From positions 1-44,156 of the IMG/VR virus record IMGVR_UViG_3300030104_002354: DNA of 44,156 nucleotides; one strand, written 5' to 3'. The notes beneath the pieces were generated by a model. The model had not been told where the DNA came from, did not search any database, and worked only from the letters and a program-made list of their open reading frames with translations. Position 1 is the stretch's first letter; each line of letters begins with the position of its first letter. This stretch comes from a virus. Positions 71-44,156 of the stretch are shown here, in pieces. The position numbers and the translations under genes are program-made.

Positions 71-2563
71 ATGAGTAATGCAAATTTCATCCCTAATATC
101 CCGTTAAATTGGTCTACTTGTCCGATATATGCAAAGGGTGTATTACTTCCTAAGAAAAACGAGACCGATCCAGATGCTTTTGCTGGCGGTAAATCACCTT
201 TAGGCAAGGCTTGGAAATTAAATCTTAATGTAGAAGAGTCTGCGTTAATGATTGAAAAACAGCCAGAAGTTTTTAAAGCTATCGGTGTTTTTACTGGAGT
301 TAAGTCAGAAGGTTTAGTAATTTTCGATGTTGATAGAAACTTAGGTGCGATAAAGAAGAAGTGGGGTAAGGATCTAGAAGAAGCACCCGTAGTTATTTCA
401 CCTAAGAAAAATGCTGCTAAATATTTGTTTATTATTCCAGAAGAACATTGGTTAGAGGTTGAATCTCTTAGCCACACTGCTGCTGAAAATGAAGGATGGG
501 AAGTTTTATGGGGTGGTCAGGGTGTAATTGCTGGTGAGTACTACACAGGAGAAGGTAATTACGAAATAGAGGGAGACTTAAATAACGTTCCAGTTGCACC
601 TGAATGGTTGATTGCTCGCATGAAAGAGCAGTACAGAAAGAAACATACTGAGGTAGATATTAAATATGTAGATAACAGGTGGTCTAAGAGAAGTAAAGAG
701 GAAAAAGTTGCAATTATATCTAGTTGCTTAAGTGTTATTGGATATAAGGGGCCAGAGCAAGAAGACTATTGGTGGGAAATAGGGGCAATGATTAATAATG
801 AGTTAGACGGAGAGGAAGGTTTAGATCTTTGGAGAGAGTGGTCTAAAAACGATCCAGATTATAAATATGTTTGGGAAAATGGGGAAGATCCTTGTGCTGA
901 CAGGTGGTATAGGACATGGAGGAATGATGGAACTAGGTTAAATATGGGTAGTTTGATAAGACTTGCGGATGAAAAAGATCCAGATAGAAAAAGATTAAAG
1001 CAGAATGGTTTAGATAAATTAGTAGAGGAAGTTTCTGCTATTCCTCTTAGATTTAAGGAAGAGATTCCTGATGGTCCAGATGTTATTAAAAGCTATGTAG
1101 AGATAGATAACGATCCAGTAAATGAGAACCCTGCTTATAGAACACAGGCACTACATAAATTAGCTATTGAAAGTAAACATAGAAGTGCTGCTGATATAGA
1201 AGAGTTGGCAGAAGCACATGAAATGTTTGAAAGAACTAAAGGTAATAAGACTAAATGTATAGATGATTTAGATGATAGTCCTCTTGAGTACACGATACCT
1301 GGCCTACTTCCTAAACCTTGGACGCTCTTAGTACATGCTGATGGTGGAACAGGTAAAACAGCTATGTGTATGACTATTGTTAAACATATAGTAGATGGTA
1401 TTCCTTTTGAGGTTTATGGAGATACGGTACACGTTCCAAAAGGTAAGGTCTTATGGCTTAACGGTGATCAAAATGAAAGGGTTGTAAAAAGACAATTTGA
1501 TCAGATAGGTATAAAAAATACGAGAAATGTTCATGTAGAAGAAGAGTGGGACATACAGTGGTACACAAGATTTAGTAAGAGACAGAATAAACATAAGTAT
1601 GATCTTGTAATTATTGACAGCTTAGATGGTTGCAATAACAGCACTCCTTATAGTGAAAATGCTAGGGAATATGCTTTCCCTCTTAAAAAACTTGTTAGAA
1701 GGAACGGGAGTGAAAATGGATTCCACCCTTGTTCTCTAATTGTTATCCATCACAACAACAAGGATGGTTCAGAAAGAGGTACTACAGCTATTAAAAACGC
1801 TGTTGATGAAAGTTGGAATATGAGAAAAATGGATGAGGTAGAGATAGGAGAAGTGCGTAGTAGAGGTGTAATCACAGGAGGTAATACACGTTCCGTGCAA
1901 GTAAGAAAATCTAGGGATGATAGATCAGATGTGAAAATGTTATTTAACCTGCAACTGGACTACACATATAAAATATCCAGTTACCCAGAAGCAGAAGAAG
2001 GTGTTCAATTTGATTGTCCTAACGCTTTCTCCAGAGCTTTACTGAAAGTTATGAGAGACAGTGGTAAATCTTGGACTAATAAGAAACTAACCCAAATAGA
2101 TATAGGAGGAAAGCATAATGAGAGAGCAATTAAGTACGCAATAGAAAGATTAAAGGCCCAAAAATTAGTAGAAGAGGTGGACGGTCCAAAAATAAAAGGA
2201 AAGAGAGGGGGTAGACCTGCGAAGTACTATAAAGCTCTTAACGTTCCAGTGAAAAAAGGTACTTCTTCTAAGGGTGGGTTAGAAAGTGTGTCTAAACTAA
2301 AAAATACAGATACTGGAACGACTTTCAACGACAATTCAAATTGTCAAAACCCTACTTTTGTCGAAACTCCCGAAGTAAAGACAGGTTTCGACAAACAAGA
2401 GGTTTCGACAAAACCGATTGTTGTTGAAAAGCCTTCCACTGGAACGAAAGAGAGTTTTGACACAAAATCTACGGGACAGGGGGTTAATGAATGGGACATG
2501 TGGAAAGTCGAGCCTAAAGAAGTCTTAGATATGGTTGTAAAAGATCAAATTATAGATATATAG
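71..2563 (+). CDS. Bifunctional primase-polymerase / replicative helicase (RepA-like)
   Basis: Replication protein of 830 aa that probably primes and unwinds phage DNA. Residues about 1-190 match the N-terminal Prim-Pol domain, with the acidic pair in FDVD (D86, D88). Residues about 205-300 match PriCT-2 (EIGAMINNE, then LWREWS). Residues about 405-600 are a RecA/RepA-type ATPase with Walker A ADGGTGKT (423-430), Walker B DLVIIDS (511-517) and the RepA-like HHNNKDG motif (560-566). About 645-720 is a winged-helix-like segment (RAIKYAIERLKAQKLVEE), followed by a polar, low-complexity tail. The usual His of the third Prim-Pol motif is not seen; K117 (NAAKYLF) sits near its place. It is first in the rightward early operon, with the DNA polymerase two genes downstream. 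It is the only helicase or primase I see, so it should serve both roles. Confidence 0.88.
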   Translation: MSNANFIPNIPLNWSTCPIYAKGVLLPKKNETDPDAFAGGKSPLGKAWKLNLNVEESALMIEKQPEVFKAIGVFTGVKSEGLVIFDVDRNLGAIKKKWGKDLEEAPVVISPKKNAAKYLFIIPEEHWLEVESLSHTAAENEGWEVLWGGQGVIAGEYYTGEGNYEIEGDLNNVPVAPEWLIARMKEQYRKKHTEVDIKYVDNRWSKRSKEEKVAIISSCLSVIGYKGPEQEDYWWEIGAMINNELDGEEGLDLWREWSKNDPDYKYVWENGEDPCADRWYRTWRNDGTRLNMGSLIRLADEKDPDRKRLKQNGLDKLVEEVSAIPLRFKEEIPDGPDVIKSYVEIDNDPVNENPAYRTQALHKLAIESKHRSAADIEELAEAHEMFERTKGNKTKCIDDLDDSPLEYTIPGLLPKPWTLLVHADGGTGKTAMCMTIVKHIVDGIPFEVYGDTVHVPKGKVLWLNGDQNERVVKRQFDQIGIKNTRNVHVEEEWDIQWYTRFSKRQNKHKYDLVIIDSLDGCNNSTPYSENAREYAFPLKKLVRRNGSENGFHPCSLIVIHHNNKDGSERGTTAIKNAVDESWNMRKMDEVEIGEVRSRGVITGGNTRSVQVRKSRDDRSDVKMLFNLQLDYTYKISSYPEAEEGVQFDCPNAFSRALLKVMRDSGKSWTNKKLTQIDIGGKHNERAIKYAIERLKAQKLVEEVDGPKIKGKRGGRPAKYYKALNVPVKKGTSSKGGLESVSKLKNTDTGTTFNDNSNCQNPTFVETPEVKTGFDKQEVSTKPIVVEKPSTGTKESFDTKSTGQGVNEWDMWKVEPKEVLDMVVKDQIIDI

Positions 2564-2578
2564 CGATAGAGTATTACA

Positions 2579-3046
2579 ATGAATAACACATACACGGACT
2601 ATTTTATGTCAGAAGAATCTGGTGGTCTTAATGAAAGACCACAGAGCAATGCTTCTAGGTTACAGAAGCTTTCACATATACTTGCTCAATCGATACCAGT
2701 ATTAACTGAAAGTGCTTTAGTGCATGAAGGTAGAATAAATGATCTAGACGGTAGACAACAAAAAACTGAATTACAAGTAGCTCGCTTAGCTGAAAAAGAG
2801 AAAATAACGGAATATATGACAGTTAGAGCTTTACAGAATATTACAGGAGCAAATTGGGATGTAACTCGTAAAGGAGAGATAGGTAAGGAACTCTCTAACC
2901 TATGTAGAACGTACAAAATAGAAAGAGGTTCTGCTTTTGATAAAACTTACGGTACTGTTTACACTTACCCTCCATTCATTTTGAAGTTATGGTTGGAGCA
3001 AAATAGATATTACGTTCCAGAGGAGTTAAGGGGTTCATATGAGTGA
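2579..3046 (+). CDS. Hypothetical protein, coiled coil plus possible DNA-binding domain
   Basis: 155 aa. Residues about 25-80 are helical and charged and likely form a coiled coil. The second half (MTVRALQNITG, then GKELSNLCRTYKI, then YPPFILKLWL) has the pattern of small anti-repressor or KilA-type C-terminal DNA-binding domains: a helix, a 'GKELSNLCR' helix, a beta hairpin ending in YGTVYTYP, and a final helix. This is a resemblance by eye only. It lies 15 bp after the PrimPol-helicase and overlaps the next gene by 8 bp, so it is an operon member and may assist replication or early regulation. Confidence 0.7.
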   Translation: MNNTYTDYFMSEESGGLNERPQSNASRLQKLSHILAQSIPVLTESALVHEGRINDLDGRQQKTELQVARLAEKEKITEYMTVRALQNITGANWDVTRKGEIGKELSNLCRTYKIERGSAFDKTYGTVYTYPPFILKLWLEQNRYYVPEELRGSYE

Positions 3047-3293
3047 TAAGTATGTACGCATCTGTGCTTACACATGTAATTATGGTGAAGAAGAACCCTT
3101 AGCTTCTGTCCGTTTTACAAGTATCGGAGAAGACGGAAAAGTAAATGCAGTCGAGCAAGTTCATTACTGGAACGAACAGTATTGCAATGGTCATATAGAA
3201 AATGCTTTGGCAAGCGGTTTTGAAATATGCCTTATAACTAGATTGAATAAAAGGATTATGAGAAAGAGAATGAAAGAATGGTCTAAAATATAA
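3039..3293 (+). CDS. Small hypothetical early protein
   Basis: 84 aa, overlapping the previous gene by 8 bp, with a good ribosome site (AGGAG at 3021-3025 and AAGGGG at 3028-3033) before the ATG. The sequence has several Cys residues and a basic C-terminus (KRIMRKRMKEW). I do not recognise a family. It sits between the replication protein and the DNA polymerase. Confidence 0.65.
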   Translation: MSDKYVRICAYTCNYGEEEPLASVRFTSIGEDGKVNAVEQVHYWNEQYCNGHIENALASGFEICLITRLNKRIMRKRMKEWSKI

Positions 3294-3332
3294 TAGTGTG
3301 CTACATTAACAAAGTAAACTTTAGGTTAATCC

Positions 3333-5168
3333 ATGACCTCATTTCAAAAGTACTCTGTCTTTTATGGGATAGAGAATCTACATCGCTTAAATACTTGCAG
3401 TAGTATCAGTTTCGATACTGAAACGACCCAGTTACAACCAAAGAAAGGTGGTTTACGGCTTATTCAGTTAGGTTCTTACACAGCTAAAACAATCGTTGTT
3501 ATTGATTGTTTTGATCTAGAAGAAAAAGACTGGGATCAGTTAGATAAATTTTTTAACAACGGTTGCCGTTTTTGGTTGGCTCATAATGCTGTGTTTGATT
3601 TGGGCTGGTTACAAGAACAGGGAATCTATGTAAGAGGGAATGTTAGGTGTTCTTTTATCGCTAACAAACTCTTATATAACGGTGTACCTCACGCTAAACA
3701 TTCATTGGATGCTCTAGCTAGTAAACATTTATCTGTTGAATTACCCAAGGAACAACAAAGATCTGATTGGTCCAAACCTGAGTTATCTAAAGAACAGTTA
3801 GAATATGCAGCTACGGACGTAGAAGTGTTGCTTGAACTAGATCAAATTCTTGATCAAAAGTTATCTAAAGCAAACTTAAAAGCTAGTTACACACTTGAAT
3901 GTCAGGCTTTGCCTGCTATGGCTCAAATGTGGAGGATAGGTTTACCTTGGAACGCACAAGCTTTACAAACTTATAAAGAAGATAAAGCTTTTGATGTGCA
4001 ACACATGGGAGATGAGTTTATACGAGAGTTAGATAATTCTCTTCCTGAAGAAGAGAAACTTCCTAGAAATGAAGATGGTACTTTTAACTTAAGGCCAAAA
4101 GATACAGGCGCTATTCGTTTAGGTACTAAAAAATATGCTGGCTTTAATATTAAAAGTTCTAAGCAACTATTAAATAAACTTACACTTATACTTGGCTACA
4201 CTCCTACAGATAACAACGGTAAACCTAGCGTAGGTAAAGAAGCACTAAGAAGGGCGGCTGCGGATTCTGAAACGATCCAGACATTAGTTGAGTGGAAGAG
4301 GAAAGAGAAGAGGAGACAGATGGCACAAAGTATTCAAGAAAAGATGGCTGATGATGGGTTTGTTCGTGCTTCTTATATGCAGTTAGGTGCAGAAACAGGA
4401 AGAATGAGTTCACTTAAACCTAATAATCAGCAGATTCCTAGAGATAAAGAGTTTAGAAGTTGTGTTGAAGCTCCTGAAGGTTGGAAAATAGTTGACGCAG
4501 ATTTTAGTCAGATGGAATTACGTTTAGCTGCTGCTCTAGCTAACGATACAAATATGATTCAAGCATTTAAAGAAGGGGCAGATTTACATGATTACACAGC
4601 CGAGAAGATGGGATGTGATAGACAGATAGCGAAATCCGCTAATTTTGGATTGCTGTATGGCGCAGGTGTAGAAGGGTTAAGAAACTATGCTGGTGCTCAA
4701 GGTGTTCTTATGTCACAGGAACAAGCAAGGAGTGTTAGAGATGGATGGCTAAATACATATTTTGGTATCAAAGAGTGGCAGAAAGAGAATCAAGATGAAG
4801 TTCGTTCCACGGAAGACAATGAATGGCCTGAGATAAGAGTGCCTGTAACCAACATGCGTAGGTACTTAAAAGGTGATTTGAATAGGGTTACGGTTAGATG
4901 TAATACACCAATACAGGGTGCAGGGGCAGCTATATTGAAATGTGCTTTAGGGAATATATGGCCTGAAGTGCATAAAGCTGGTGAAGATGTTGTGAAGATT
5001 GCTGCTGCTGTTCACGATGAGATACTTCTTTTAGTCAAAGAGGAGTACGCTGATGAATGGGCAACATTACTAAAGGGGATCATGGAAAGTGCTGAATCTT
5101 TGTGGTTAAAAGATGTACCGTCTTTAGCCGAGGTAAAGATCGGAAACACATGGGAGGAAGTACATTGA
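3333..5168 (+). CDS. DNA polymerase I (family A) with 3'-5' exonuclease
   Basis: Phage replicative polymerase of 611 aa: a DnaQ-like proofreading domain fused to a Pol A palm, without the 5'-3' exonuclease of cellular Pol I. Exo motifs: FDTET (D28, E30), HNAVFDLGWL (N85, D89) and YAATDVEVL (D162). Polymerase motif A is DADFSQMELR (D390). The O-helix RQIAKSANFGLLYG carries R430, K434, F438 and Y442. Motif C is HDE (561-563). F438 aligns with E. coli Phe762, the ancestral state, not the Tyr or Leu variants common in marine phages. The family and fold are established; the role as the phage replicase is inferred from context. The ATG at 3333 has a weak ribosome site. Confidence 0.95.
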   Translation: MTSFQKYSVFYGIENLHRLNTCSSISFDTETTQLQPKKGGLRLIQLGSYTAKTIVVIDCFDLEEKDWDQLDKFFNNGCRFWLAHNAVFDLGWLQEQGIYVRGNVRCSFIANKLLYNGVPHAKHSLDALASKHLSVELPKEQQRSDWSKPELSKEQLEYAATDVEVLLELDQILDQKLSKANLKASYTLECQALPAMAQMWRIGLPWNAQALQTYKEDKAFDVQHMGDEFIRELDNSLPEEEKLPRNEDGTFNLRPKDTGAIRLGTKKYAGFNIKSSKQLLNKLTLILGYTPTDNNGKPSVGKEALRRAAADSETIQTLVEWKRKEKRRQMAQSIQEKMADDGFVRASYMQLGAETGRMSSLKPNNQQIPRDKEFRSCVEAPEGWKIVDADFSQMELRLAAALANDTNMIQAFKEGADLHDYTAEKMGCDRQIAKSANFGLLYGAGVEGLRNYAGAQGVLMSQEQARSVRDGWLNTYFGIKEWQKENQDEVRSTEDNEWPEIRVPVTNMRRYLKGDLNRVTVRCNTPIQGAGAAILKCALGNIWPEVHKAGEDVVKIAAAVHDEILLLVKEEYADEWATLLKGIMESAESLWLKDVPSLAEVKIGNTWEEVH

Positions 5169-6172: not shown

Positions 6173-6175
6173 ATA

Positions 6176-18695: not shown

Positions 18696-18730
18696 GGAAG
18701 ACTCTTAATTAACAGGGTGACAAGCAAAAA

Positions 18731-19072: not shown

Positions 19073-19133
19073 TGTCCTAAAAGTTTTCTATATTTTAACA
19101 ATACCTACAACAATATCCTGTATCTAAAAAGTT

Positions 19134-25718: not shown

Positions 25719-25721
25719 AAT

Positions 25722-28382: not shown

Positions 28383-28396
28383 TTAATAGTATTAGT

Positions 28397-28958: not shown

Positions 28959-28988
28959 GTAAATCTGTATGTACTCTTGTAGTATAAC

Positions 28989-29630
28989 CTATAAGTCTAA
29001 ATAAGCTCTTGGTTGGTAATTGTAAGACTGACCTGAACTACCTACATTTCCCGTATAGTTCTTACTCTTAAACGTTGTCTTTCTATCTGTCTTCCGTATA
29101 ACAAATTTTTTGGAACGGAAAGCTCTATTAATATCTCTCATTAAGTACTGTGTATCGTTCAAATAAATCCTGTACCAACTAGGTTTTGGGTTTATTTTTG
29201 GAGTTAAGTTTGCAGTCCTACCATGTTGAGCATACGTTACTTTTTTACCCCTAGTATCCATTATATTTTGAAAATGATGGATCTTTTCTCCCCAGAAACC
29301 TGTTGCAAATAAAGCGTATTCAGAAGCGTTACCTATATACAAAGTTTGAGCTATAGGCACTACAGAGAACTCAGGTCTTTCTCTTCTTCTAGGTCTGCGA
29401 GCCGCTTGAATGGCTTCTTTATCCCAGAAAGGAGGATTGGGATCTCTCTCTATCTCACCTCCTTGAACTGGTGCAGTACTAACTACCCAACTCTTAGCAA
29501 AGCTACCTGTCCACCACGGTCCTTTATCTTGCAAAGTATGAACGATCTCTTTTGTCGCCTCTGTTCTTGCTTGTCTTACAGCAGTTTCTATATCATTAGC
29601 AAGACTATTTAAACTCTTTTTTCTAGGCAT
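28989..29630 (-). CDS. Head-tail joining / tail completion protein (HK97 gp10-like)
   Basis: 213 aa. The N-terminal helix (LANDIETAVRQARTEATKEI) followed by DKGPWWTGSFAKSWVVS and IGNASEYALFATGF matches the HK97 gp10/lambda gpZ type of tail completion proteins ('tPv.TG.lr.sw', 'N...YA.....G'). The C-terminus is basic and Tyr-rich. It starts inside the end of the tail terminator gene (8-bp overlap). It would act at the head-tail interface. Confidence 0.7.
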   Translation of the reverse strand: MPRKKSLNSLANDIETAVRQARTEATKEIVHTLQDKGPWWTGSFAKSWVVSTAPVQGGEIERDPNPPFWDKEAIQAARRPRRRERPEFSVVPIAQTLYIGNASEYALFATGFWGEKIHHFQNIMDTRGKKVTYAQHGRTANLTPKINPKPSWYRIYLNDTQYLMRDINRAFRSKKFVIRKTDRKTTFKSKNYTGNVGSSGQSYNYQPRAYLDL

Positions 29631-35651: not shown

Positions 35652-36905
35652 TTAGTAAATTCTGTACCCAGTCTGCCCTAAAGTTTCAGGTTTTGCCAAG
35701 TTGAACTGCTGTAAACATAGGTAGCCGAAAGCGTCAAAAGCGTGATCAACACCAAGATTTTTATTAGGTAAACCTGTGTTTGGTGCATAAGTCAGAGTTC
35801 TCAGAGATTTTATTAGTTCCTTGCATCTTGGATGAATATACGTTCTTCTGTCTCCGCTTGCATCCAGTAAAGCAGTGTTAACGGCTGTTATTTTGTCTCT
35901 TATTTTCCAAGGGGCACGGGGACTTGAAACATTAAAACCACTTCTTCGTAAAATACTATGGTCAGTTGCTCCTACTCCAGAAGTTTTTCTTGCTCCGCCC
36001 GTGGGATCAGGACATGCCACTATTCTGCGTTCCACGCCGTATCTTCGGGTGACTTCTTCGGCAAAGTCCCATGTGGTTGCCCCACCTGTGAGCGTGATTT
36101 CGTCAAAAACATACAATGTATCCGAATCTTTAACAGCGCATACGGCTGACATTGGGTCAACGTTAAAGTCAACACCTAAAAGTATGGGAGCTACGCTTAT
36201 ATCTTTTGCTTTTTGGGAGATGTTTTCGTCAGAGAAAGAAACTGCGACTAAACCTGTCAGATTTTCAAAGCTGGCTTCAAATTCTTGGCGAAATGTGCGT
36301 TCGTCTAGTTGGGCACGGGCAGCTTGTACTTCGTCTGCTGGTACGTTGCCCCCTTCTATTGTAGTAAAACTCCAGCGTTTCCAGTCGCCTGTTTCATCTT
36401 CGGGGACGTAGCACCATAAATCGTAGAACCAGCTTGCGGTTCCATCGGGTGTGGATATGAAGAGGGTCCAGCCTTGTTTGTCGGCTAGGGCGGGACGGAT
36501 TACCTCGAACCACACTTCAGAATCCATGAAGGCTGCTTCGTCTAGGACTACACCAGCAAGACTTCGACCACGAAGAGCCATTGCGTTTTCTGTTCCTTTG
36601 AGTTCGATGGTGGAATCGTTGATGAGTTCTATTTTTAGGTCGCTTTCGTTTTTATTTTTGATCCACTCGTTAGGGACTAGGCGTTTTATTTCTTTCCATG
36701 CGATGTCTTTTGCCATACGGTAGGTCGGAGCGCAGTAAAAGTAGGTTTCTCCTGGTCTGTTTATTGCTGCTTTTAGTAATTCGATGCAGGAAAGATATGA
36801 TTTTCCGAAGCGGCGACCAGCTACTAGGACACGGAATCTACTTTCGCTATTGAATACTTCTCCCTGTGCCCAACGTAAACTTAAAGGTACTGTTTTTGTA
36901 GTCAT
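35652..36905 (-). CDS. Terminase large subunit
   Basis: 417 aa DNA packaging motor. ATPase: Walker A AGRRFGKS (29-36), Walker B GVVLDEAAF with D122 and E123, coupling motif STPDG (151-155). RuvC-type nuclease: D246 (GVDFNVD), D300 (ACPDPTG) and D387/D391 (DHAFDAF). It pumps DNA into the procapsid and cuts it. First gene of the leftward late region. The intergenic space before it (36906-37004) is shared with the divergent small-terminase candidate. Confidence 0.95.
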   Translation of the reverse strand: MTTKTVPLSLRWAQGEVFNSESRFRVLVAGRRFGKSYLSCIELLKAAINRPGETYFYCAPTYRMAKDIAWKEIKRLVPNEWIKNKNESDLKIELINDSTIELKGTENAMALRGRSLAGVVLDEAAFMDSEVWFEVIRPALADKQGWTLFISTPDGTASWFYDLWCYVPEDETGDWKRWSFTTIEGGNVPADEVQAARAQLDERTFRQEFEASFENLTGLVAVSFSDENISQKAKDISVAPILLGVDFNVDPMSAVCAVKDSDTLYVFDEITLTGGATTWDFAEEVTRRYGVERRIVACPDPTGGARKTSGVGATDHSILRRSGFNVSSPRAPWKIRDKITAVNTALLDASGDRRTYIHPRCKELIKSLRTLTYAPNTGLPNKNLGVDHAFDAFGYLCLQQFNLAKPETLGQTGYRIY

Positions 36906-37004: not shown

Positions 37005-37442
37005 GTGACTGATTCTGTTATTCGTAATAAAAACGGACAGTTTTGCGTTCCAGGGAAAGAAAATGAGGCTGTTGGTAGGAGGACTGATGCTGTTGTGGAG
37101 GCTAGGAGACAAAAGTTGTATAGGAGGCAGTTAGAGGGTTTAACTGTGAGACAGTTAGTTTTGGATCATCAGGCGAAGGAAGGGATTAGTCGGGATACTG
37201 CTTGGGCAGATTGGAGGAAGGTGAAGCAGTGGAATAATGAGGACTGGGAGACTGACAGGGAGAACTTGTTGCCTAGATTGCAAGCAATGAGGATTAGGCT
37301 TTTTGAAAAGGCTGTGAGGAAAGGACAGTTGCAGACTGCTGCTCAGGTGCTGGATTCGTTGGGGAGAGTGATTGGGGAAAGTGTGGAAAACGTAAATATC
37401 AACGCTCCACAATTATCGATTCAGGTAGAACCAAAGAATTGA
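37005..37442 (+). CDS. Small terminase subunit candidate
   Basis: 145 aa from a GTG start preceded by GGATTAG. The N-terminus has a basic tail and a helix-turn-helix-like region (LEGLTVRQLVLDHQ, ISRDTAWADWRKVK). The C-terminal half is a long helix pair (RLQAMRIRLFEKAVRKGQLQ, TAAQVLDSLGRVIGES), as in TerS and related phage HTH proteins. Its position, divergent to and adjacent with TerL, supports a packaging-recognition role, but sequence proof is weak. The base use is more G-rich than in nearby genes. Confidence 0.6.
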   Translation: MTDSVIRNKNGQFCVPGKENEAVGRRTDAVVEARRQKLYRRQLEGLTVRQLVLDHQAKEGISRDTAWADWRKVKQWNNEDWETDRENLLPRLQAMRIRLFEKAVRKGQLQTAAQVLDSLGRVIGESVENVNINAPQLSIQVEPKN

Positions 37443-37624: not shown

Positions 37625-37680
37625 TGTAGTATAAGTATGTAGTACATAAGAAACTTATTCACCAAAATATATTTAAGTAG

Positions 37681-37726: not shown

Positions 37727-37856
37727 TGTCTACTCTACTGTAGTTATGTAGTACAGTAATGACATAGCTACCTCGACAACATACGTCTACACGACTGTCT
37801 TTATAAACGGGTCGTCTAACTATTGTAGTAGTTTAGTAAAAATAATTGCAGACATT

Positions 37857-37884
37857 AAAAAATCCCCACTTGTGAGGTGGGGAT
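37857..37884 (-). terminator. Terminator of unit 38364-37906
   Basis: A 10-bp GC-rich stem (37862-37871 with 37875-37884, one wobble) and a tight loop, then A-run 37857-37862, which gives U's in the leftward RNA. It may also act rightward for the TerS/SAP transcript. Confidence 0.75.
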
Positions 37885-37905
37885 ATAAAAAATTTTAGTA
37901 GTTAA

Positions 37906-38103
37906 TCAACCGTAGATAGTTTTATAACAATAGGAACTGCTCTCACGTTCCAGACATCTTTTCAGGTGTTGCTGATCTTCGATATGGAATGAGTAAGAAC
38001 ATACGCCAAAGAATAGAACAGATAGAATTACCATACTAGACAGCATAATATTCTCTTTTCTGCCTGTGGCTTGCCTTCTTTGTGTTCTTTGTTGGTAGTT
38101 CAT
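37906..38103 (-). CDS. Small single-TM protein
   Basis: 65 aa. A basic N-terminus (QQRTQRRQATGRKEN) is followed by a hydrophobic helix (IMLSSMVILSVLFFGVCSYS, residues about 19-38), then a polar part with two Cys (KRCLERESSSYCYK). It could be a small inner-membrane protein or a signal-anchored periplasmic one. It is 33 bp downstream of the next gene in the same unit. Function unknown. Confidence 0.55.
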   Translation of the reverse strand: MNYQQRTQRRQATGRKENIMLSSMVILSVLFFGVCSYSFHIEDQQHLKRCLERESSSYCYKTIYG

Positions 38104-38136
38104 AAGTAATTTACAGAGTTAGTACGGTAGAGAGAC

Positions 38137-38364
38137 TTAAAAACTAGAGATAATTGTTGCGGTCGTTCCACTAGTTTTGGTGTACTCAATAGTTCCAGTA
38201 GAACTTACTAAAACATCTGTGAACCACTTCTGAATAGACACTGTGACCTGTTGGCAGTTGGAAAAGTCAGCAATAAATTTTACTTTGTTGGGTTGGTCTC
38301 TGTAGTGCTTAGCAAATACAACAGATGCGCCAGCAGGTAGAGACTCAGCAAGTTTAGAAATCAT
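38137..38364 (-). CDS. Small hypothetical protein
   Basis: 75 aa, alpha/beta mixture: PAGASVVFAKHYRDQPNKVK, then FIADFSN, VTVSIQKWFTDVLVSST and EYTKTSGTTATIISS. No family recognised. It is the first gene of a unit with its own promoter (38393-38420) and a leader nearly the same as that of the 39067 gene. No ribosome site in the leader. Confidence 0.55.
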   Translation of the reverse strand: MISKLAESLPAGASVVFAKHYRDQPNKVKFIADFSNCQQVTVSIQKWFTDVLVSSTGTIEYTKTSGTTATIISSF

Positions 38365-38392
38365 TTGAAATTGTGGATGAATTTACTATTCT

Positions 38393-38420
38393 ATTGTAAC
38401 ACAGTAGAACAGACACGCAA
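38393..38420 (-). promoter_or_regulatory. Promoter of unit 38364-37906
   Basis: Leftward TTGCGT (38415-38420), 16-nt spacer, TACAAT (38393-38398). It starts 2 bp after the terminator of the previous unit. The stretch from TACAAT to the ATG closely matches that of 39096-39067. Confidence 0.55.
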
Positions 38421-38422
38421 AT

Positions 38423-38448
38423 AAAAAAGGGACTGTAAAAAGTCCCTT
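38423..38448 (-). terminator. Terminator of the 39067-38483 gene
   Basis: AAGGGACT/AGTCCCTT (38427-38434 with 38441-38448), loop GTAAAA, then an A-run 38423-38428 giving leftward U's. Confidence 0.8.
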
Positions 38449-38482
38449 AAAATCTATATTTTAAAATGTAGTAACTGACCTT

Positions 38483-39067
38483 TTATACTATCCTAACAAG
38501 TTCGTTATAGATTTTTCTATCCTCAAAATCACAACAATTAAACTTATACTCCTCACCTTTTAAACCTTGCTTTATTACCTTATTCAAAACATTCAATAAA
38601 ACTTCATTACAAAGAATGTAAGCAAGTGAACTTCTAAACTCAGAACTATGTGAACACTGAGTCATAAAATCCTTAGTAATTGAAGCTACTTTTAAAAAAT
38701 CAATATTAATATCATTCGCCATCAATACCGATACATTAGAAGCATCAAAAGCAAACTCTGATTTTTTATACTTATAATTTTCACATCCTTTCCACATAAG
38801 AGGATCACCATACCTAACATCTAGTGATTTTTTATTAGCAGATACCATGTGATCAACTAATAATTGCGGTATGTCCTCACTTTTAATCTTACATTCATTG
38901 TGAATATCAGAAATATCTTGCCTAGCTATAAAACTACTTTTAGTTTCAGACCTTCTAAACTCTAAACAATCAAACTTAGTTCTATTATCTAAGTGACTTT
39001 GAGTTTCTTCTAACCAATAGGTAACTATTAAATTAATAGCGTCATTAGTTGCAAGATAACAAGACAT
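38483..39067 (-). CDS. Hypothetical protein (MSCYLATNDAINLIV type)
   Basis: 194 aa. The N-terminus MSCYLATNDAINLIVTYWLE is like a set of cyanobacterial and cyanophage proteins of unknown function that begin 'MSCF..s..hI..lv'. The rest has several Cys (C49-type sites and a CC pair near the end, FNCCDFE) and helices. Single-gene unit with its own promoter and terminator. Confidence 0.6.
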   Translation of the reverse strand: MSCYLATNDAINLIVTYWLEETQSHLDNRTKFDCLEFRRSETKSSFIARQDISDIHNECKIKSEDIPQLLVDHMVSANKKSLDVRYGDPLMWKGCENYKYKKSEFAFDASNVSVLMANDINIDFLKVASITKDFMTQCSHSSEFRSSLAYILCNEVLLNVLNKVIKQGLKGEEYKFNCCDFEDRKIYNELVRIV

Positions 39068-39095
39068 AATTGAAATTTGGATGATTTACATATCT

Positions 39096-39123
39096 ATTGT
39101 ATCACACTAGAAAGGATAATCAA
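39096..39123 (-). promoter_or_regulatory. Promoter of the 39067-38483 gene
   Basis: Leftward TTGATT (39118-39123), 16-nt spacer, TACAAT (39096-39101), followed by AGATATGTAAATCATCCA and AATTTCAATT just before the ATG. Confidence 0.6.
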
Positions 39124-39126
39124 TAA

Positions 39127-39151
39127 TAAAAAAGAGCCTGTAAAGGCTCTT
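39127..39151 (-). terminator. Terminator of the 39581-39216 gene
   Basis: AAGAGCC/GGCTCTT (39132-39138 with 39145-39151), loop TGTAAA, then an A-rich run 39127-39133 giving leftward U's. Confidence 0.75.
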
Positions 39152-39215
39152 AAATCTATATTTAAAAATGTTGTCAATGACTTTCTATACTACACTAACA
39201 AATTAAAATGATGAT

Positions 39216-39581
39216 TTATTCGACTTTCAATTGATTAACTAAAATATCTTTTCTATCTTTTTTATACTTATTTATCTTTTCGGTTACTTTCAAAAGTAAT
39301 TTTTCACCCTTTTCTATTTCATCATCTAATTTGATTAAATCAACTATGCAAGATCCGTAATCATAAAAAGATTCTTTATCATCTACAAAATCTAGAAAAT
39401 TTTCTAAATCATAATAATCGCACATTGTCTGATCATTGTATTCATCATTTGGCGTTCCATCATTTGAATACATTTTTGAATATTCCTTTTCTATCCTTTT
39501 AAATGATTTTTTAGCAATAACAATGTATTTTTTAGCGTGTTCTTTGAAATACTTTTTGGCAAAAGGATTTGAATTGTTCAT
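39216..39581 (-). CDS. Hypothetical charged helical protein
   Basis: 121 aa, rich in Lys, Asp, Glu and Tyr. The N-terminal basic helix (AKKYFKEHAKKYIVIAKKSF) is followed by an acidic Tyr/Asp-rich middle (NDEYNDQTMCDYYDLENFLD) and a C-terminal coiled coil (EKGEKLLLKVTEKINKYKKD). Not recognised. The AT-rich codon use is stronger than in the structural genes. Single-gene unit with its own promoter and terminator. Confidence 0.55.
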   Translation of the reverse strand: MNNSNPFAKKYFKEHAKKYIVIAKKSFKRIEKEYSKMYSNDGTPNDEYNDQTMCDYYDLENFLDFVDDKESFYDYGSCIVDLIKLDDEIEKGEKLLLKVTEKINKYKKDRKDILVNQLKVE

Positions 39582-39607
39582 AGTTCTATGAGTGAGAAAC
39601 TAAAGTC

Positions 39608-39636
39608 ATTCTAGGCTATCTAATGTAATACGTCAA
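39608..39636 (-). promoter_or_regulatory. Promoter of the 39581-39216 gene
   Basis: Leftward TTGACG (39631-39636), 17-nt spacer, TAGAAT (39608-39613): the best sigma70 match in the window. It lies 6 bp after the terminator of the DUF932 gene. Confidence 0.65.
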
Positions 39637-39642
39637 TAAAAT

Positions 39643-39669
39643 AAAAAAGGGACTGTATTAGAGTCCCTT
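39643..39669 (-). terminator. Terminator of the DUF932 gene
   Basis: AAGGGACT/AGTCCCTT (39647-39654 with 39662-39669), loop GTATTAG, then an A-run 39643-39648. The stem sequence is identical to that at 38427-38448. Confidence 0.8.
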
Positions 39670-39694
39670 ACTTATTATTATCTAATTAATGTAG

Positions 39695-40780
39695 TTATCT
39701 AGTAAGTTGTAAGCACTTTTCTCTTGCTATATCTATTCGATTACCACAAGGGCCAGCTATTAAAGATTGATACCTATTCATTGCATTTTTATTCTCATCT
39801 AATATTCTGCCTTCACTATGTGTCTGTTGATAGGTGAGTGCATTAAACGCTCCATAGAGTGAAAAATCATTATCTCTATAGTAGTTATTTTTTACTTCAG
39901 ACCATTCCTTGTCAATATCAGAGATATTTTTGTTTCTTTTCTCTTTAGTGTACTTATCTTTGACCTGACCTTTTAATTTATCGGCTAGTGAGTGCAAAAA
40001 TATATCTCTCAATGTATCAGTGCCTTTTAACTCAACTTTTTTCATGGCTCTAAACTCTTCAATGGATTCTTGTAAATCGTGACTATTTTGTGCAATATAA
40101 GAGGGTAGATGTTTGCTCCAATTAACAATATTTTGAGAATGTTTCATTGTAAGTTTATTTTTAGACTTGTTAATACGTCCCATTTGATTGAAGCAGAAAA
40201 GCCTAAAATCTATGATTATTACTTTATATGAATGAGTATTGTTAAATGAGTTGACAAAAATCATTCTGCGCTTGATTTTATCGTTAGGTGTCACCTCTCC
40301 GATATTGTCCTTCATAGAACATGAGACAAATGAGAAGGCACCACCTTGCCCATTAATCACGTTCTCGACTTGTAAGACTTTCTTATTTTGCTCGATAATA
40401 TCTAGAGTCCTCGAATTATTTAAAGGTCCATACGTTCCAGATACACAACTTAAGACCTTACCAGTTCTACTGTTTACAAGTGCTTTGGCGTTGGGAACAT
40501 CTATATAACCATTAGATTGAATAGTGTCACATTTAGCAGTATCAGCAACTAAGGGAACTTGATGAACATCAAAAGTTAGTCCAGTATCCCAAAATATCTG
40601 TTCATTGGTTTTATTGTCTGTAACTGTCGTACCAATAAGACTCTCATTACCTTTTCTTTGATAACCTAACCTTTTAAAGTCAGCACTTCTATTTTGACTC
40701 TCTACCATAATAGGATTTGATTTTGAATAGACAGTATCTATTTCAGTTTGATAGTGTCTCTCGTTGTTAATAAAAGTCAT
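39695..40780 (-). CDS. DUF932-family (phage/plasmid-like) protein
   Basis: 361 aa. The features VPNAKALVNSRTGKVLSCVS, YGPLNNSRTLDIIEQ, GGAFSFVSCSMKD, RRMIFVNSFNNTHSYKVIII and HSQNIVNW follow the DUF932 pattern ('a.vr.dtg..lg.V...Y.p..n.e.f', 'G..f.l..l', 'l...ns.dgs.a....t..rvvC.N'). Such proteins are widespread in phages and plasmids; function unknown, possibly linked to DNA metabolism. It lies in its own transcription unit with a sigma70-type promoter. No ribosome site: TTCATCC directly precedes the ATG. Confidence 0.75.
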   Translation of the reverse strand: MTFINNERHYQTEIDTVYSKSNPIMVESQNRSADFKRLGYQRKGNESLIGTTVTDNKTNEQIFWDTGLTFDVHQVPLVADTAKCDTIQSNGYIDVPNAKALVNSRTGKVLSCVSGTYGPLNNSRTLDIIEQNKKVLQVENVINGQGGAFSFVSCSMKDNIGEVTPNDKIKRRMIFVNSFNNTHSYKVIIIDFRLFCFNQMGRINKSKNKLTMKHSQNIVNWSKHLPSYIAQNSHDLQESIEEFRAMKKVELKGTDTLRDIFLHSLADKLKGQVKDKYTKEKRNKNISDIDKEWSEVKNNYYRDNDFSLYGAFNALTYQQTHSEGRILDENKNAMNRYQSLIAGPCGNRIDIAREKCLQLTR

Positions 40781-40807
40781 GGATGAACTTTGTGTATTAC
40801 ATTTCTA

Positions 40808-40835
40808 ACTATACAGCAAAAAGTAGATAAGACAA
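40808..40835 (-). promoter_or_regulatory. Promoter of the DUF932 gene
   Basis: Leftward TTGTCT (40830-40835), 16-nt spacer, TATAGT (40808-40813), 28 bp before the ATG. Confidence 0.55.
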
Positions 40836-40881
40836 TCTAAAAAATCAAATGTTAGTAAAATATCACAATAGAGATTTTTAG

Positions 40882-40939
40882 CCTTTTATATGCTATATAA
40901 AAAGAATATTCCATAATCTATAGAATATTACAATATCAA
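40882..40939. other. AT-rich palindrome cluster in divergent intergenic region
   Basis: Two imperfect inverted repeats: CTTTTATAT...ATATAAAAAG (about 40883-40904) and AATATTC/GAATATT (40915-40921 with 40933-40939); the octamer GAATATTC (40914-40921) is itself a palindrome. They lie in the 274-bp divergent region 40781-41054, which otherwise holds only promoters. Candidate operator or origin. Confidence 0.4.
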
Positions 40940-41054
40940 AACATTTAACTAGATAATCCTATCTACTGTGTAACAATATAAGAGTCTGTTAGTTCTCGTT
41001 ATTTTTACGGGAATTACGGATATTTTTTAAATCGTTCCATTAATCACTCAAATT

Positions 41055-41630
41055 ATGGGCTTAGATATGTACCTTGATGGTGTTTTCAGTAAGAGAGCAT
41101 ACTTTCAAGAAGATCGATCCGTTCCTATGGATGATCCTATTCAGAGTGAGAGCTTAAAGCTTGCACTTGCTTCTATAGGTTTCCCTGATAACGTTCCACT
41201 AGATTTTTCTTACAGGCATTTTGAGGTTAGGCTACCTCTTGCATCTTGGAGAAAAGCTAATCAAATACATAACTACATAGTTAGGGAAATCGGTAAAGGT
41301 ATAGACGACCAGAAACCTATTTATTTAACTGATGAACATTTAGAGCAAATTTTAGATGTTATTAGGGAAGTAGGGAACGATCCAGTGAAAGCCAAGAAGC
41401 TCCTACCTCCTGTTGAAGGTTTCTTCTTTGGTAGTCAGGAAATTGATTCTTACTATTGGCAAGATTTAGCCTACACAAGAAAGACTCTAAAAAAGATTCT
41501 TGAATATCAAAAAGTACAAGCTCATATTTATAAAGAAGCTGAGTTAAAGGAATATCAAAAAGATAGGAAGGATAGAACGTTCCCTGATCCTAAAGGTTTT
41601 GATTCTTTTAGATATAGGGCCAGTTGGTAG
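41055..41630 (+). CDS. Conserved phage protein of the MGLDMYL family
   Basis: 191 aa. MGLDMYLDGVFSKRAYF and WRKANQIHNYIVREIGKGID, then EIDSYYWQDLAYTRKTLKKI, are hallmarks of a phage protein family found in many hosts, always starting MGLDMYL with a WRKANxIHxW site. No function is established. It is first in the rightward 41.0-42.9 kb operon. A CGTTCCA lies just upstream at 41033. Confidence 0.75.
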   Translation: MGLDMYLDGVFSKRAYFQEDRSVPMDDPIQSESLKLALASIGFPDNVPLDFSYRHFEVRLPLASWRKANQIHNYIVREIGKGIDDQKPIYLTDEHLEQILDVIREVGNDPVKAKKLLPPVEGFFFGSQEIDSYYWQDLAYTRKTLKKILEYQKVQAHIYKEAELKEYQKDRKDRTFPDPKGFDSFRYRASW

Positions 41631-41632
41631 GA

Positions 41633-41995
41633 ATGGATAAACAAGAAGGGATAGAGTTTATTGAACAAGCTCTATTAGATAATCTAAAAATTAAAAATAA
41701 GCATATCCGTAGAGATGTAACGACTGAGTTACAAGAAGATTACGGAATCAGCTCTACCACTTCTTACGAGTGGTATAGAGCTGCTTATCAAAACTTTAGA
41801 ACAGACAAGGTAGAAACTGAGGGTGGATACAAAGCGATCCATCCATCAGTTTTGCTTAGGGATGCTGAGGATATCATGCTATCGATTGACTCTACTGAAG
41901 AGCCTGAGAGATACATGAAAGCTCAGCAACATTATGCAAATTTATTAGGCAAATTTAAGCACTTAATTATGTTCCGTTCCAATGAAACACACTGA
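41633..41995 (+). CDS. HTH protein, possibly terminase-small-subunit-like
   Basis: 120 aa from ATG 41633; a TTG at 41624 with AGGG just before it would add three residues and overlap the previous stop. A helix-turn-helix is seen at about 25-55 (IRRDVTTELQEDYGISSTTS, then YEWYRAAY). The second half is helical (EEPERYMKAQQHYANLLGKF). The pattern resembles DNA-binding small terminases or early regulators. Its location in an early operon argues for a regulator. It overlaps the next gene by 14 bp. Confidence 0.6.
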   Translation: MDKQEGIEFIEQALLDNLKIKNKHIRRDVTTELQEDYGISSTTSYEWYRAAYQNFRTDKVETEGGYKAIHPSVLLRDAEDIMLSIDSTEEPERYMKAQQHYANLLGKFKHLIMFRSNETH

Positions 41996-42158
41996 TTTTT
42001 TAATACGTGTAGAGCATACGCAAGCCTACACAAAAGAAGCTCTTACCCAGATACTAAAAAGATCTGGGATTAGTGGACTTAAGGTTACTATTCTTGATGC
42101 TGAAAATGCTGGAGATAGTAACGATCCACGTAATTATTCACCCTACATAGGTCACTAA
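41982..42158 (+). CDS. 58-aa hypothetical protein
   Basis: Starts MKHTDFLIRVEHTQAYTKEA in the overlap with the previous gene, then LTQILKRSGISGLKVTILDA and a short acidic end. The strand-helix-strand pattern (FLIRVEHTQ, helix, KVTILDAEN) suggests a small ferredoxin-like fold. Ends 1 bp before the next ATG. Unknown function. Confidence 0.55.
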   Translation: MKHTDFLIRVEHTQAYTKEALTQILKRSGISGLKVTILDAENAGDSNDPRNYSPYIGH

Positions 42159-42159
42159 A

Positions 42160-42396
42160 ATGAACGATCCACAGATTATTCATCCCTTTTGTCAGGTACA
42201 TTATTCTGATGTGCCTAAGCTAGTTAAAATTCTCTATATGGTTGAGACTTTTTGTCCTGAATTTGCTGCTACATGGGACAGCGTAGATTCAGGGGATCAA
42301 GCAACTTGGGAGGAGGTTAAGAAGCTTGTTTTAGATATTGGGGAGGATGCACGTACCATCAAAGAACATCTTAATTGGAGTGAGAAAAATGAATAA
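42160..42396 (+). CDS. Small acidic hypothetical protein
   Basis: 78 aa, helical, with VPKLVKILYMVETFCPEFAA and ATWEEVKKLVLDIGEDARTI. It starts 1 bp after the upstream stop and overlaps the next start by 8 bp. Not recognised. Confidence 0.55.
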   Translation: MNDPQIIHPFCQVHYSDVPKLVKILYMVETFCPEFAATWDSVDSGDQATWEEVKKLVLDIGEDARTIKEHLNWSEKNE

Positions 42397-42550
42397 TAGG
42401 AATTACTCTGAGTCTGAAATTTTTAGGCAAGCTGAGAATGACTTGTTTAATAATTCTTTTTGGAATCAAGAAGATGAGCCGGAAGATGACGAGCCATCAG
42501 ATGATGAAATGATGTCTGCTTTTGGTACTAAGTGGCATGACGGGTTATGA
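42389..42550 (+). CDS. Small acidic hypothetical protein
   Basis: 53 aa from ATG 42389, preceded by GGAGTGAG at a good distance; an upstream extension into the previous gene is unlikely. Very acidic second half (EDEPEDDEPSDDEMMSAFG). Such acidic small proteins can mimic DNA, but this is only a possibility from charge. Its stop overlaps the next ATG (ATGA). Confidence 0.5.
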   Translation: MNNRNYSESEIFRQAENDLFNNSFWNQEDEPEDDEPSDDEMMSAFGTKWHDGL

Positions 42551-42744
42551 AACAACCAAGATACAAACTTGAGCTAACTCATAAACAGTTAGCTGAGATT
42601 GAGGACTTCTATGAAGAACGTTCCAAAATATCTTTAGGTAATGGGGTTAATAGAGAAGATTTGGCAGATGCTTTTGATGCACTGGCAAGAATTAATCGAC
42701 TTTATTCTGATAATGCAGTTGAAATGTGGGGTGAGCAAGTATGA
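42547..42744 (+). CDS. Small helical hypothetical protein
   Basis: 65 aa: YKLELTHKQLAEIEDFYEER, then NREDLADAFDALARINRLYS. All helical. Coupled on both sides by ATGA overlaps. May pair with the following ribbon-helix-helix protein, but there is no sequence proof. Confidence 0.55.
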   Translation: MKQPRYKLELTHKQLAEIEDFYEERSKISLGNGVNREDLADAFDALARINRLYSDNAVEMWGEQV

Positions 42745-42926
42745 CTAAAATTACTATTGATGGAGTTACCTTTATTGAGCAGAAAAAATCTACTGCTATG
42801 AAAACAGTAGGGGCTAGATTACCTTTGGAAGTGATTGAACTGTTAGAAAAAAGAGCTAAAGAATTAGGAATAAATAAAACTACGTTGATGCGTTTTTATA
42901 TATGTAAGGGTCTTAAGTTTGGTTGA
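42741..42926 (+). CDS. Ribbon-helix-helix (CopG-like) regulator
   Basis: 61 aa. KTVGARLPLEVIELLEKRAK, then LGINKTTLMRFYICKGLK, is a standard ribbon-helix-helix: a beta strand (VGARLP), helix A, a turn, and helix B beginning TTLMR. Likely represses early promoters as a dimer or tetramer. It is last in the operon; its 3' end overlaps the convergent exonuclease gene by 14 bp. Confidence 0.7.
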   Translation: MTKITIDGVTFIEQKKSTAMKTVGARLPLEVIELLEKRAKELGINKTTLMRFYICKGLKFG

Positions 42927-43761
42927 GGGTTAGAGATTGCTGGTACTGTTCGTTACGTTCCAGAAACCATACCTCGGCGGCTCGTAATTCGAGTTCGCTG
43001 AGGATTTTTATTTGTGGGGCACCACTACGTCTAGCTATGATTACTGCTCCTTTTTTAGGGCGGAGTCCGATTAGGGATTTTAAAGCTAGGCTGTACGCTC
43101 CAAGTTGGCAGCAGAATTGGTCGATGATGGATTCGCTACGTGCGTCTTTTGCGGTCTTCCAGTCTGCTATGAAAGGGCCGTCTCCGTCTATGTCTATTAG
43201 GGCGTCCGCTGTACCTGCATATCCGTGTTGTTCGTTGTAGACACTAAATTCTGAGGCGTGGATGGCGGTTACACGTTCCAGGATGAAAGACCGTAAGCCT
43301 CTGGCGTAGCCACTGGCTGAGAAACCAACCTTCGGGGCGTTCTCTGCTGCCTTTTCAAGTGCCCATTTTGTGACTTTGCTAGGGCACCGTTCAAGTCCGT
43401 CCGATCCAGTCTTCCATACTCCTCGGTTGTTGCCAGCGTTTCGTGCCAGCTTTGCACCAGTTTTGAGAAGGTATTCTGCATGTGAGTGTGCAAGTTCTCC
43501 ACGTTTGCAAGCAATGTCCCTTTCGGTGTAACTGTTTGGTCTTTGTAGCCAACGTTCCAGTGCATCTTTTTTATCTTGGGGTGCTGTTTGACTAAGGATA
43601 TGAGTTACTGAATGATATACATTTTTCTTTGCATCTCGATATATCCTGTGTGGGTATAAAGTTTGAGTGTCGTCTCGTTCCAGTTTCCAGTTTCTTAGGT
43701 CTGCTAGAGCGTCTTGTTTGTCTAGCGTACCCATTAATGGTTCATAAATACACGTTCCCAT
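42913..43761 (-). CDS. PD-(D/E)XK exonuclease (RecB/Cas4-like)
   Basis: 282 aa. RGELAHSHAEYLL (H92 with an upstream RG) and the core E171, GYAGTADALIDI (D186), IADWKT (D200, K202) and QLGAY (Q219, Y223) make a complete PD-(D/E)XK site. Phage members digest DNA ends for recombination, replication or host DNA breakdown. A second ATG (M10) gives an alternative start at 43734. The gene looks GC-richer than its neighbours. It lies next to an ssDNA-binding-like gene, which suggests a recombination/repair pair. Confidence 0.85.
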   Translation of the reverse strand: MGTCIYEPLMGTLDKQDALADLRNWKLERDDTQTLYPHRIYRDAKKNVYHSVTHILSQTAPQDKKDALERWLQRPNSYTERDIACKRGELAHSHAEYLLKTGAKLARNAGNNRGVWKTGSDGLERCPSKVTKWALEKAAENAPKVGFSASGYARGLRSFILERVTAIHASEFSVYNEQHGYAGTADALIDIDGDGPFIADWKTAKDARSESIIDQFCCQLGAYSLALKSLIGLRPKKGAVIIARRSGAPQIKILSELELRAAEVWFLERNEQYQQSLTLNQT

Positions 43762-43783
43762 AATTAATATATAGCAAAAGGAC

Positions 43784-43813
43784 TAAAAAAGAAAGGGGTC
43801 TGTGCGACCCCTT
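43784..43813 (-). terminator. Terminator between SSB-like gene and exonuclease
   Basis: AAGGGGTC/GACCCCTT (43793-43800 with 43806-43813), loop TGTGC, then A-rich 43784-43794 giving leftward U's. A TATATA box before the exonuclease ATG (about 43768) hints at a separate promoter. Confidence 0.75.
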
Positions 43814-43819
43814 GTTTAT

Positions 43820-44156
43820 TTAAGCTGCTGCTTTGAAAGGATCTCCTCCATCTAGTAAGCGTCTTAAATCGAAACCTTTTTCCTGAGTTTCTTTCCATGC
43901 AAGCTCAATGGAAGCTGTAGCACCTTTCTTTCTAGGAACAGCATTAAGGCTGTATCTAGTTTCTTTAGCTTGTCCTGTTCTCTTTAGAACTAAATCAATT
44001 TCAGTCATACAGTCTCTGTAATCTTCCATCTGACTTATCTCATCTAGTGCTTGAGTTATCGTTGACTGATTCCATTCAAGTACTTGGACAGAACTTGTGT
44101 TGTAGTTATACACAGGTACAGAAGAAGCCATCTTTATAGCATCGCTACCCGTTCCA
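43820..44156 (-). CDS. ssDNA-binding-like protein, 5' end cut by window edge
   Basis: 103 aa from ATG 44131, but the frame stays open through GTGSDAIK to the edge, so the start is probably outside. SSVQVLEWNQSTITQALDEI, then TEIDLVLKRTGQAKETRYSL and AVPRKK, resembles the C-terminal part of phage ssDNA-binding proteins ('kvleitq.ti..al......yDi.i.rtG.gl.T.Y...p.pkk'). Those are longer and have an N-terminal OB or zinc part, which fits a truncation here. It would protect ssDNA made by the replication genes and the nearby exonuclease. Confidence 0.55.
   Translation of the reverse strand, partial: GTGSDAIKMASSVPVYNYNTSSVQVLEWNQSTITQALDEISQMEDYRDCMTEIDLVLKRTGQAKETRYSLNAVPRKKGATASIELAWKETQEKGFDLRRLLDGGDPFKAAA

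Follow-up and report, generated by a model that had tools for sequence, protein, structure and literature searches.

Why does one asymmetric 7-base word, CGTTCCA, recur so often in the virus record IMGVR_UViG_3300030104_002354, and what reads it? The window analyzed here is this complete virus record of 44,156 bases, and its lambda-type tail genes indicate that the phage is probably a siphovirus. CGTTCCA is one form of a motif, CGNTCCA (TGGANCG on the other strand), whose enrichment is a trait of a phage family and which takes almost exclusively one orientation over some 8.5 kb. This polar domain surrounds the genes for the exonuclease, the SSB-like protein, and the primase-helicase, and its end lies near the terminase genes terS and terL.

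Abundance and form of the motif

CGTTCCA is the most over-represented 7-mer of the window with 43 exact copies (30 on the plus strand and 13 on the minus strand) compared with 3.6, 2.5, 4.2, 5.6, 10.1, and 30.0 expected from Markov models of orders 0 to 5, a count near that observed being reached only at order 5, in a model already containing the 6-mers. The reversed control word has 9 copies, the maximum in 200 order-1 simulations is 7, and chance or base composition as the cause is rejected by Markov orders 0–3 and by the simulations. An earlier reading made from the letters alone (the sequence-only reading) had counted 42 copies, one short of the real number, and had placed the excess at about ten-fold, which agrees with 43 compared with 2.5–5.6 from orders 0–3; it had named a third-order expectation of about 40 copies as fatal to the claim, and the value obtained is the 5.6 given above. 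The clustering it described in two arms is evident, with 34 of the 43 copies lying at 0–11.1 or 36–44.2 kb, and the related word CGATCCA is frequent as it had suspected (16 compared with 2.6 at order 3). The interval that it took to be free of copies, 16,716–29,111, contains one at 28,236.

The form of the motif was defined by a single-base substitution scan of CGTTCCA and CGATCCA across ten genomes, in which C1, G2, C5, C6, and A7 are fixed, position 3 is T, A, or C more than G, position 4 prefers T, and a mild preference for G follows the final A. The working motif is therefore written CGNTCCA, with 73 sites in the window (55 on the plus strand and 18 on the minus strand). Coding DNA of the window contains 69 sites compared with 13.8±3.1 after synonymous codon shuffling, and the motif exceeds its synonymous shuffles in ten of ten genomes, the weakest case being G004 with 71 compared with 34.9±4.5. 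Protein coding or codon usage as the cause is rejected by these shuffles, genome by genome and also by region, so that the excess persists independently of protein sequence as the sequence-only reading had supposed. Its further statement that all reading frames are used stands in that the three codon phases are seen, yet pooling the ten genomes reveals a preference for phase 2 (211 of 371 antisense sites, 144 of 248 sense sites), in which the motif's free base falls where a substitution changes the amino acid.

A one-way domain around the replication genes

The orientation of the sites was profiled in relatives by aligning loci on the exonuclease start, with starts entered by hand; 105 loci were fetched, 85 used, and 72 are non-redundant, a sample that differs from the 72 loci tabulated for enrichment below. 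In the first kilobase from the exonuclease start, 431 sites lie in one orientation and 2 in the other, where protein sequence lifts the expectation to 75.2 favored and 11.4 opposite sites. Site density peaks in the exonuclease gene, with 408 observed and 53.8 expected from synonymous shuffling, and decays over about 3 kb. On one side the one-way region reaches approximately −3.05 kb, within the tail-encoding part of the primase-helicase gene, and 68 of the 90 opposite sites at this edge fall in two conserved alignment columns. On the other side it extends to about 500 bp before terL, with 217 sites to 9 over the preceding 3.5 kb (54 loci); the next 250-bp bin toward terL has 0 to 39, probably one conserved site recurring in many related loci, and fully mixed orientation begins about 250 bp inside terL. 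The edges of the domain are clear, yet they rest on few independent sites.

In the window itself the CGNTCCA sites number 27 on the plus strand to 0 on the minus strand inside the domain and 28 to 18 outside, and the features concerned are as follows.

37800–44156, plus strand: right half of the polar domain, with all CGNTCCA sites on the plus strand; limits suggested by the profiles of relatives.
1–2281, plus strand: left half of the polar domain, the region upstream and most of the primase-helicase gene; its end is chosen so as to precede the first reverse site (2314) and lies close to the point at which relatives switch.
2314–2446, minus strand: first sites in reverse orientation, located where the primase gene encodes the disordered tail (Thr-Gly-Thr).
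42913–43761, minus strand: MGME1-like PD-(D/E)XK exonuclease, the peak of site density, with 6 CGNTCCA sites in the window copy.
43820–44131, minus strand: SSB-like protein, cut by the record end; about 203 amino acids in the relative L002.
71–2563, plus strand: primase-helicase, the proposed reader of the motif, with weak Prim-Pol, PriCT-2, RepA/DnaB-like helicase, probable winged helix, and disordered tail.
37005–37442, plus strand: gene in the usual place of terS, named by position alone and having no PHROG match; the one-way domain ends about here.
35652–36905, minus strand: terminase large subunit (terL).
3333–5168, plus strand: family A DNA polymerase, probably not required for the motif.
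41033–41039, plus strand: copy of CGTTCCA outside the predicted genes, as the sequence-only reading had placed it.

The record end falls within the SSB-like gene. In L002 the genes of both window ends are adjacent, separated by about 350 bp absent from the window, and the two motif-rich arms would thus form a single arc if the genome is circular or permuted.

Compared with expectation, the favored orientation inside the domain is enriched 6.3-fold in genes on one strand (518 compared with 81.8) and 10.2-fold in genes on the other (369 compared with 36.3), and the polarity is not explained by transcription direction because it holds for genes on either strand. The opposite orientation is depleted in both (13 compared with 31.2, a ratio of 0.42, and 16 compared with 29.1, a ratio of 0.55), whereas outside the domain both orientations are enriched, with four values between 2.9- and 7.0-fold. 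Enrichment of the favored orientation is present in each of four lineages (2.3- to 10.8-fold), and the opposite one is clearly depleted in W/B/E, the largest set (0.25 and 0.32), and depleted weakly or not at all in the smaller sets (0.47 to 1.02). Of the roles listed in the sequence-only reading, the evidence supports a polar signal at the DNA level with a link to replication, recombination, or packaging, because the polarity ignores transcription and the domain spans primase-helicase to terS/terL.

The same observations bear on two other explanations. It is most unlikely that the sites are targets of a DNA-modifying enzyme; a methyltransferase could conceivably recognize a bipartite CG-NN-CCA core, but modification predicts neither strand polarity nor the loss of one orientation in one domain, and no methyltransferase is present among the family matches obtained for the window proteins (not every open reading frame was searched). 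Sites of a phage repressor, regulator, or DNA-organizing protein, comparable with stoperators or nucleoid protein sites, are improbable. Short asymmetric sites in many copies would suit such a protein, and the operator TGGAACGNCGTTCCA of the Streptomyces TetR regulator SCO7222 has a half-site formed by the same 7 bases, as given in the report of that operator (PMC3511530), so a regulator can read them. The phage sites, however, are single half-sites, nearly all within genes, with a polarity that ignores transcription; the intergenic, transcription-oriented sites expected of stoperators or operators are not seen. Origin iterons are also rejected, as there is no tight array at one place, the sites being distributed genome-wide, with a spacing of about 120 bp in the exonuclease gene.

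The number and orientation of the sites are better kept than their positions. In 99 different exonuclease proteins, 553 favored sites fall in 28 alignment columns, 4 of which are more than half occupied, and 5 sites have the opposite orientation, while 239 favored sites in 59 primase genes occupy 51 columns with none above half. The check on relatives proposed in the sequence-only reading thus gives a divided result, with the word enriched in relatives and the site positions kept only in part.

Two other words show an uneven distribution. Around the exonuclease gene, CCATTCA/TGAATGG shows a one-sided excess (179 compared with 38.4 in the first kilobase, loci L218–L341); it also occurs in phages having another replication module, shows no excess in host-type DNA, and is rejected as a like signal because outside the exonuclease gene protein sequence accounts for most of it. 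CACTAGC has 12 copies on the plus strand and one on the minus strand within 8625–31190 of the window, mostly in late genes where CGTTCCA is rare.

Relatives, host-type genomes, and the replication module

CGNTCCA is above its reversed control and strand-biased in 13 of 13 related records, the least in G008 with 17 to 9. The top 7-mer is CGTTCCA or CGATCCA in nine of ten genomes, and in the tenth, G004, it is CTGGAGC, which overlaps the motif and is followed by CGCTCCA. From the best 80 of 544 relatives, 72 exonuclease loci were tabulated (8 under 6 kb left out), having exonucleases 57–98% identical to that of the window; all 72 are 3.9- to 17-fold enriched with the same polarity, totaling 1,482 sites in one orientation to 330 in the other. 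The motif-carrying loci span 29% to 58% GC, with weaker enrichment at high GC. A further 41 of 44 loci were tabulated with divergent exonucleases or another module (3 under 5 kb left out), and the divergent group, whose exonuclease shares about 40% identity with that of the window, has 456 sites compared with 74.5 in 24 loci, the weakest being 2.2-fold enriched. Six of seven other cyanophages have no clear excess (S-2L, S-H1, P-SSP7, MED4-117, MED4-184, and part of PSS2) and neither do two single-cell virus fragments; the seventh, KBS-S-2A, has a weak CGTTCCA excess of 15 compared with 5.2, with 3 on one strand and 12 on the other. AATCCTA, possibly another phage-specific word, is over-represented in MED4-117 (L134; 20 compared with 4.9) and MED4-184 (L135; 18 compared with 4.8).

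The hosts are likely marine picocyanobacteria, because the gene at 8850–9701 matches 436 phage records that are all named Synechococcus, Cyanophage, Prochlorococcus, "Marine," or uncultured, and the structural relatives point the same way. The window portal is 36% identical to that of cyanophage S-2L and 32% to that of KBS-S-2A, and 39% of it is matched at 90% by a single-cell virus fragment; no portal relatives were found in the scanned host assemblies. CGTTCCA is rarer than its reversed control in ten of ten Prochlorococcus-, Synechococcus-, or Cyanobium-type genomes, with forward and reverse counts alike in nine of them and of 16 to 33 in the tenth. When 400 kb of Synechococcus RCC307 and 392 kb of a Prochlorococcus single-cell genome were counted, none of the four CGNTCCA words exceeded third-order expectation, and the related word TGTCCCA shows a slight excess in RCC307 (38 compared with 23.4).

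These counts speak against a signal borrowed from the host. A RecC family protein is encoded in eight of ten genomes of this inferred host type, which may therefore have a Chi site, and Chi carries TGG, which the motif shares. CGNTCCA is nevertheless probably not that Chi site, and it is very improbable that the phage has collected the RecBCD signal of its host, as the words are not in excess in the host-type genomes or, clearly, in six of the seven other cyanophages. Neither the host Chi site nor the HIP1-like host repeat considered in the sequence-only reading is supported, the motif being at or below expectation in host-type DNA.

Within the phages the motif goes with the replication module. 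The exonuclease, SSB-like protein, and primase-helicase are found together in every locus long enough to tell, so their co-occurrence does not separate the three as reader, and no homologues of these window proteins were found in twelve comparison sequences by searches with E up to 10 or by a profile search. Siblings of the same terminase/portal lineage carry another module with RusA, a different exonuclease, and in several a Sak-type annealing protein, and have 66 sites compared with 37.5 in 17 loci. The motif-poor siblings have portals 84–100% and large terminases 85–86% identical. One capsid/terminase lineage with at least two replication-recombination modules (L035, L060, and L323–L341 compared with the window) is a clear case of module swapping, and both exonuclease types, the window's and that of the sibling module, match PHROG 298. 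The terminase and portal are unlikely readers as the same lineage, in comparisons of which one covers loci of 7 kb or more, occurs with and without the motif, and the DNA polymerase is unlikely as G029 is motif-rich without a detected one.

The swap also bears on a packaging guide comparable with the KOPS sites of FtsK, read by the terminase to orient or choose the DNA. The one-way domain ends near terS/terL, and KOPS-like phage sites have been proposed by others from a small terminase bearing FtsK-gamma, as outlined in that report (PMC8190038). With siblings of this portal and terminase lineage being motif-poor in that region and the motif following the replication module instead, a packaging guide is quite unlikely.

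Candidate readers and comparison with known systems

The exonuclease model has a mean pLDDT of 88.5, with human MGME1 as the best fold match (E 2.5e-8) followed by E. coli RecE, and the exonuclease profile also matches MGME1 by sequence (E 9e-17). A PD-(D/E)XK core with Q-x3-Y accompanies this similarity in the window protein, and Asp-186, Asp-200, Lys-202, Gln-219, and Tyr-223 are invariant in 11 sequences and putatively catalytic. The primase-helicase has a clear PriCT-2 domain and RepA/DnaB-like helicase, and its model (pLDDT 73.5 and pTM 0.49) shows a probable winged helix and a disordered tail. PHROG matches of the SSB-like protein are weak, the best having E 0.0013 (for L002). The combination of an MGME1-like exonuclease, primase-helicase, SSB-like protein, and family A polymerase is reminiscent of the mitochondrial replisome.

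Variants of the motif offer a means of separating the primase from the exonuclease. The primases form two main clades, against which the exonuclease types are partly reshuffled, groups C and D combining a clade II primase with the common exonuclease type. CGGTCCA, with G as the third base, accounts for 56 of 819 sites with primase clade I, compared with 1 of 231 (groups C and D) and 1 of 334 (group H) with clade II. The extra word TGTCCCA is enriched in group D and part of group H, and it occurs 8 times compared with 0.9 in L267, where an H-like primase is combined with the common exonuclease. Judged from these words, the variants track primase clade somewhat better than exonuclease, which moderately favors the primase-helicase. 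TGTCCCA (TGGGACA) is enriched in L267, L274, L302, L307, L312, L316, L317, and L319 and is perhaps a shifted form of the motif.

The reading put forward here, tentatively and in the knowledge that it may well prove wrong, is that the phage's replication machinery, most likely its primase-helicase, recognizes CGNTCCA and that DNA synthesis is thereby given a direction. The primase-helicase would recognize CGNTCCA/TGGANCG, and selection would maintain many copies genome-wide. In the domain, sites would be retained on one strand and removed from the other, and priming or helicase loading there would be confined to one strand, making the stretch from terS/terL to the primase gene comparable with a long initiation zone that works in one direction. 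A precedent is the PrimPol of phage NrS-1, described as recognizing the 8-nucleotide sequence 5'-TTTGGTTA-3' (also 5'-GTGG-3'/GTGA) (PMC8718748, PMC7102993).

Several observations weigh against a primase reader. The Prim-Pol match of the window protein scores 22.4 compared with the Pfam cut-off of 22.8 bits (L276 is over the cut-off), and PrimPol structures are absent from the 50 best fold matches of the primase-helicase. Group B provides 44 of the 56 clade I CGGTCCA sites, and the Fisher values for the clade difference (1e-5 and 9e-8) are overstated, the sites and loci being related. In group F2, which is high in GC and whose sampled primase (L070) lies closest to H, CGGTCCA accounts for 40 of 351 sites, 1.4-fold over expectation, and group C, also clade II, lacks the TGTCCCA excess. 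Three of the 17 other-module sibling loci (L328, L332, and L338) are still 3- to 6-fold enriched; the full records of two of these and of two more siblings have few sites near the replication genes and more in tail/fiber-side genes, which in some cases reach 93% identity with their window counterparts. This is read as mosaic exchange, and it also counts against a strict link to the module. The NrS-1 genome, moreover, is described as having only two copies of its sequence (PMC7102993).

The main alternative is a phage-private Chi-like site, in which a nuclease would enter at a terminase-made end near terS, move toward the replication genes, and be stopped or switched by correctly oriented sites, the reader being the phage exonuclease or a complex with it. 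The domain adjoins terS/terL, the density peak lies in the exonuclease gene, and TGGANCG met from the terS end would match the polarity of E. coli Chi. In accounts of lambdoid phages Chi is concentrated between the replication genes and cos (PMC3784561), and lambda exonuclease is reported to pause at GGCGA (PMC7496540). This alternative is nevertheless unlikely. The closest relative of the exonuclease, MGME1, is a single-strand exonuclease and not a duplex-end resector, the motif variants track the primase better, avoidance of the wrong orientation is not predicted by Chi, and in G003 the peak remains at the exonuclease gene when the distance to terL shrinks.

More broadly, and with comparable reserve, the motif may be a virus-private, genome-wide directional code read by the replication complex, whose domain purged of the wrong orientation would determine which way DNA is synthesized or processed across the replication genes as far as the packaging site; the signal may even shape the exonuclease (repeated Leu-Glu-Arg) and the primase tail (Thr-Gly-Thr). 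The new element is the polar domain around the replication genes, and whole-word and topic searches of open-licence papers found no description of a phage-only polar motif with a bounded domain disfavoring the wrong orientation. The phage lineage appears to carry its own polar signal, not enriched in host-type genomes, and the direction of replication, recombination, or packaging becomes testable in a large uncultured group of probable marine cyanophages. A natural experiment is provided in which the capsid lineage is constant, the replication module is swapped, and the motif is largely gone.

Among known systems, HIP1 is a very abundant short word of cyanobacterial genomes, and the phage motif resembles it in abundance; HIP1 is a palindromic host repeat, whereas the phage motif is asymmetric, polar, and phage-only. 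Polar over-represented words such as Chi and KOPS are known signals of bacterial chromosomes. KOPS is likewise an oriented short motif in many copies (see PMC8190038 for its proposed phage counterpart), but it is found on bacterial chromosomes, and the window proteins searched yielded no FtsK-gamma domain. Chi in lambdoid phages, as presented in PMC3784561, is similarly short, polar, over-represented, and located between replication genes and packaging site, but it is the RecBCD signal of the host, whereas the phage motif lacks host-type enrichment and its wrong orientation is depleted in the domain. The SCO7222 operator TGGAACGNCGTTCCA is described as a palindrome of two half-sites between two genes (PMC3511530), in contrast to the single, mostly genic phage sites. 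The NrS-1 PrimPol is the closest parallel to the putative PrimPol of the window, which likewise has an attached helicase and would recognize a sequence of 7–8 bases, the NrS-1 helicase being assigned to superfamily III (PMC7102993) and that of the window being RepA/DnaB-like; the two genomic copies given for NrS-1 compare with dozens of sites and a polar domain in the phages analyzed here.

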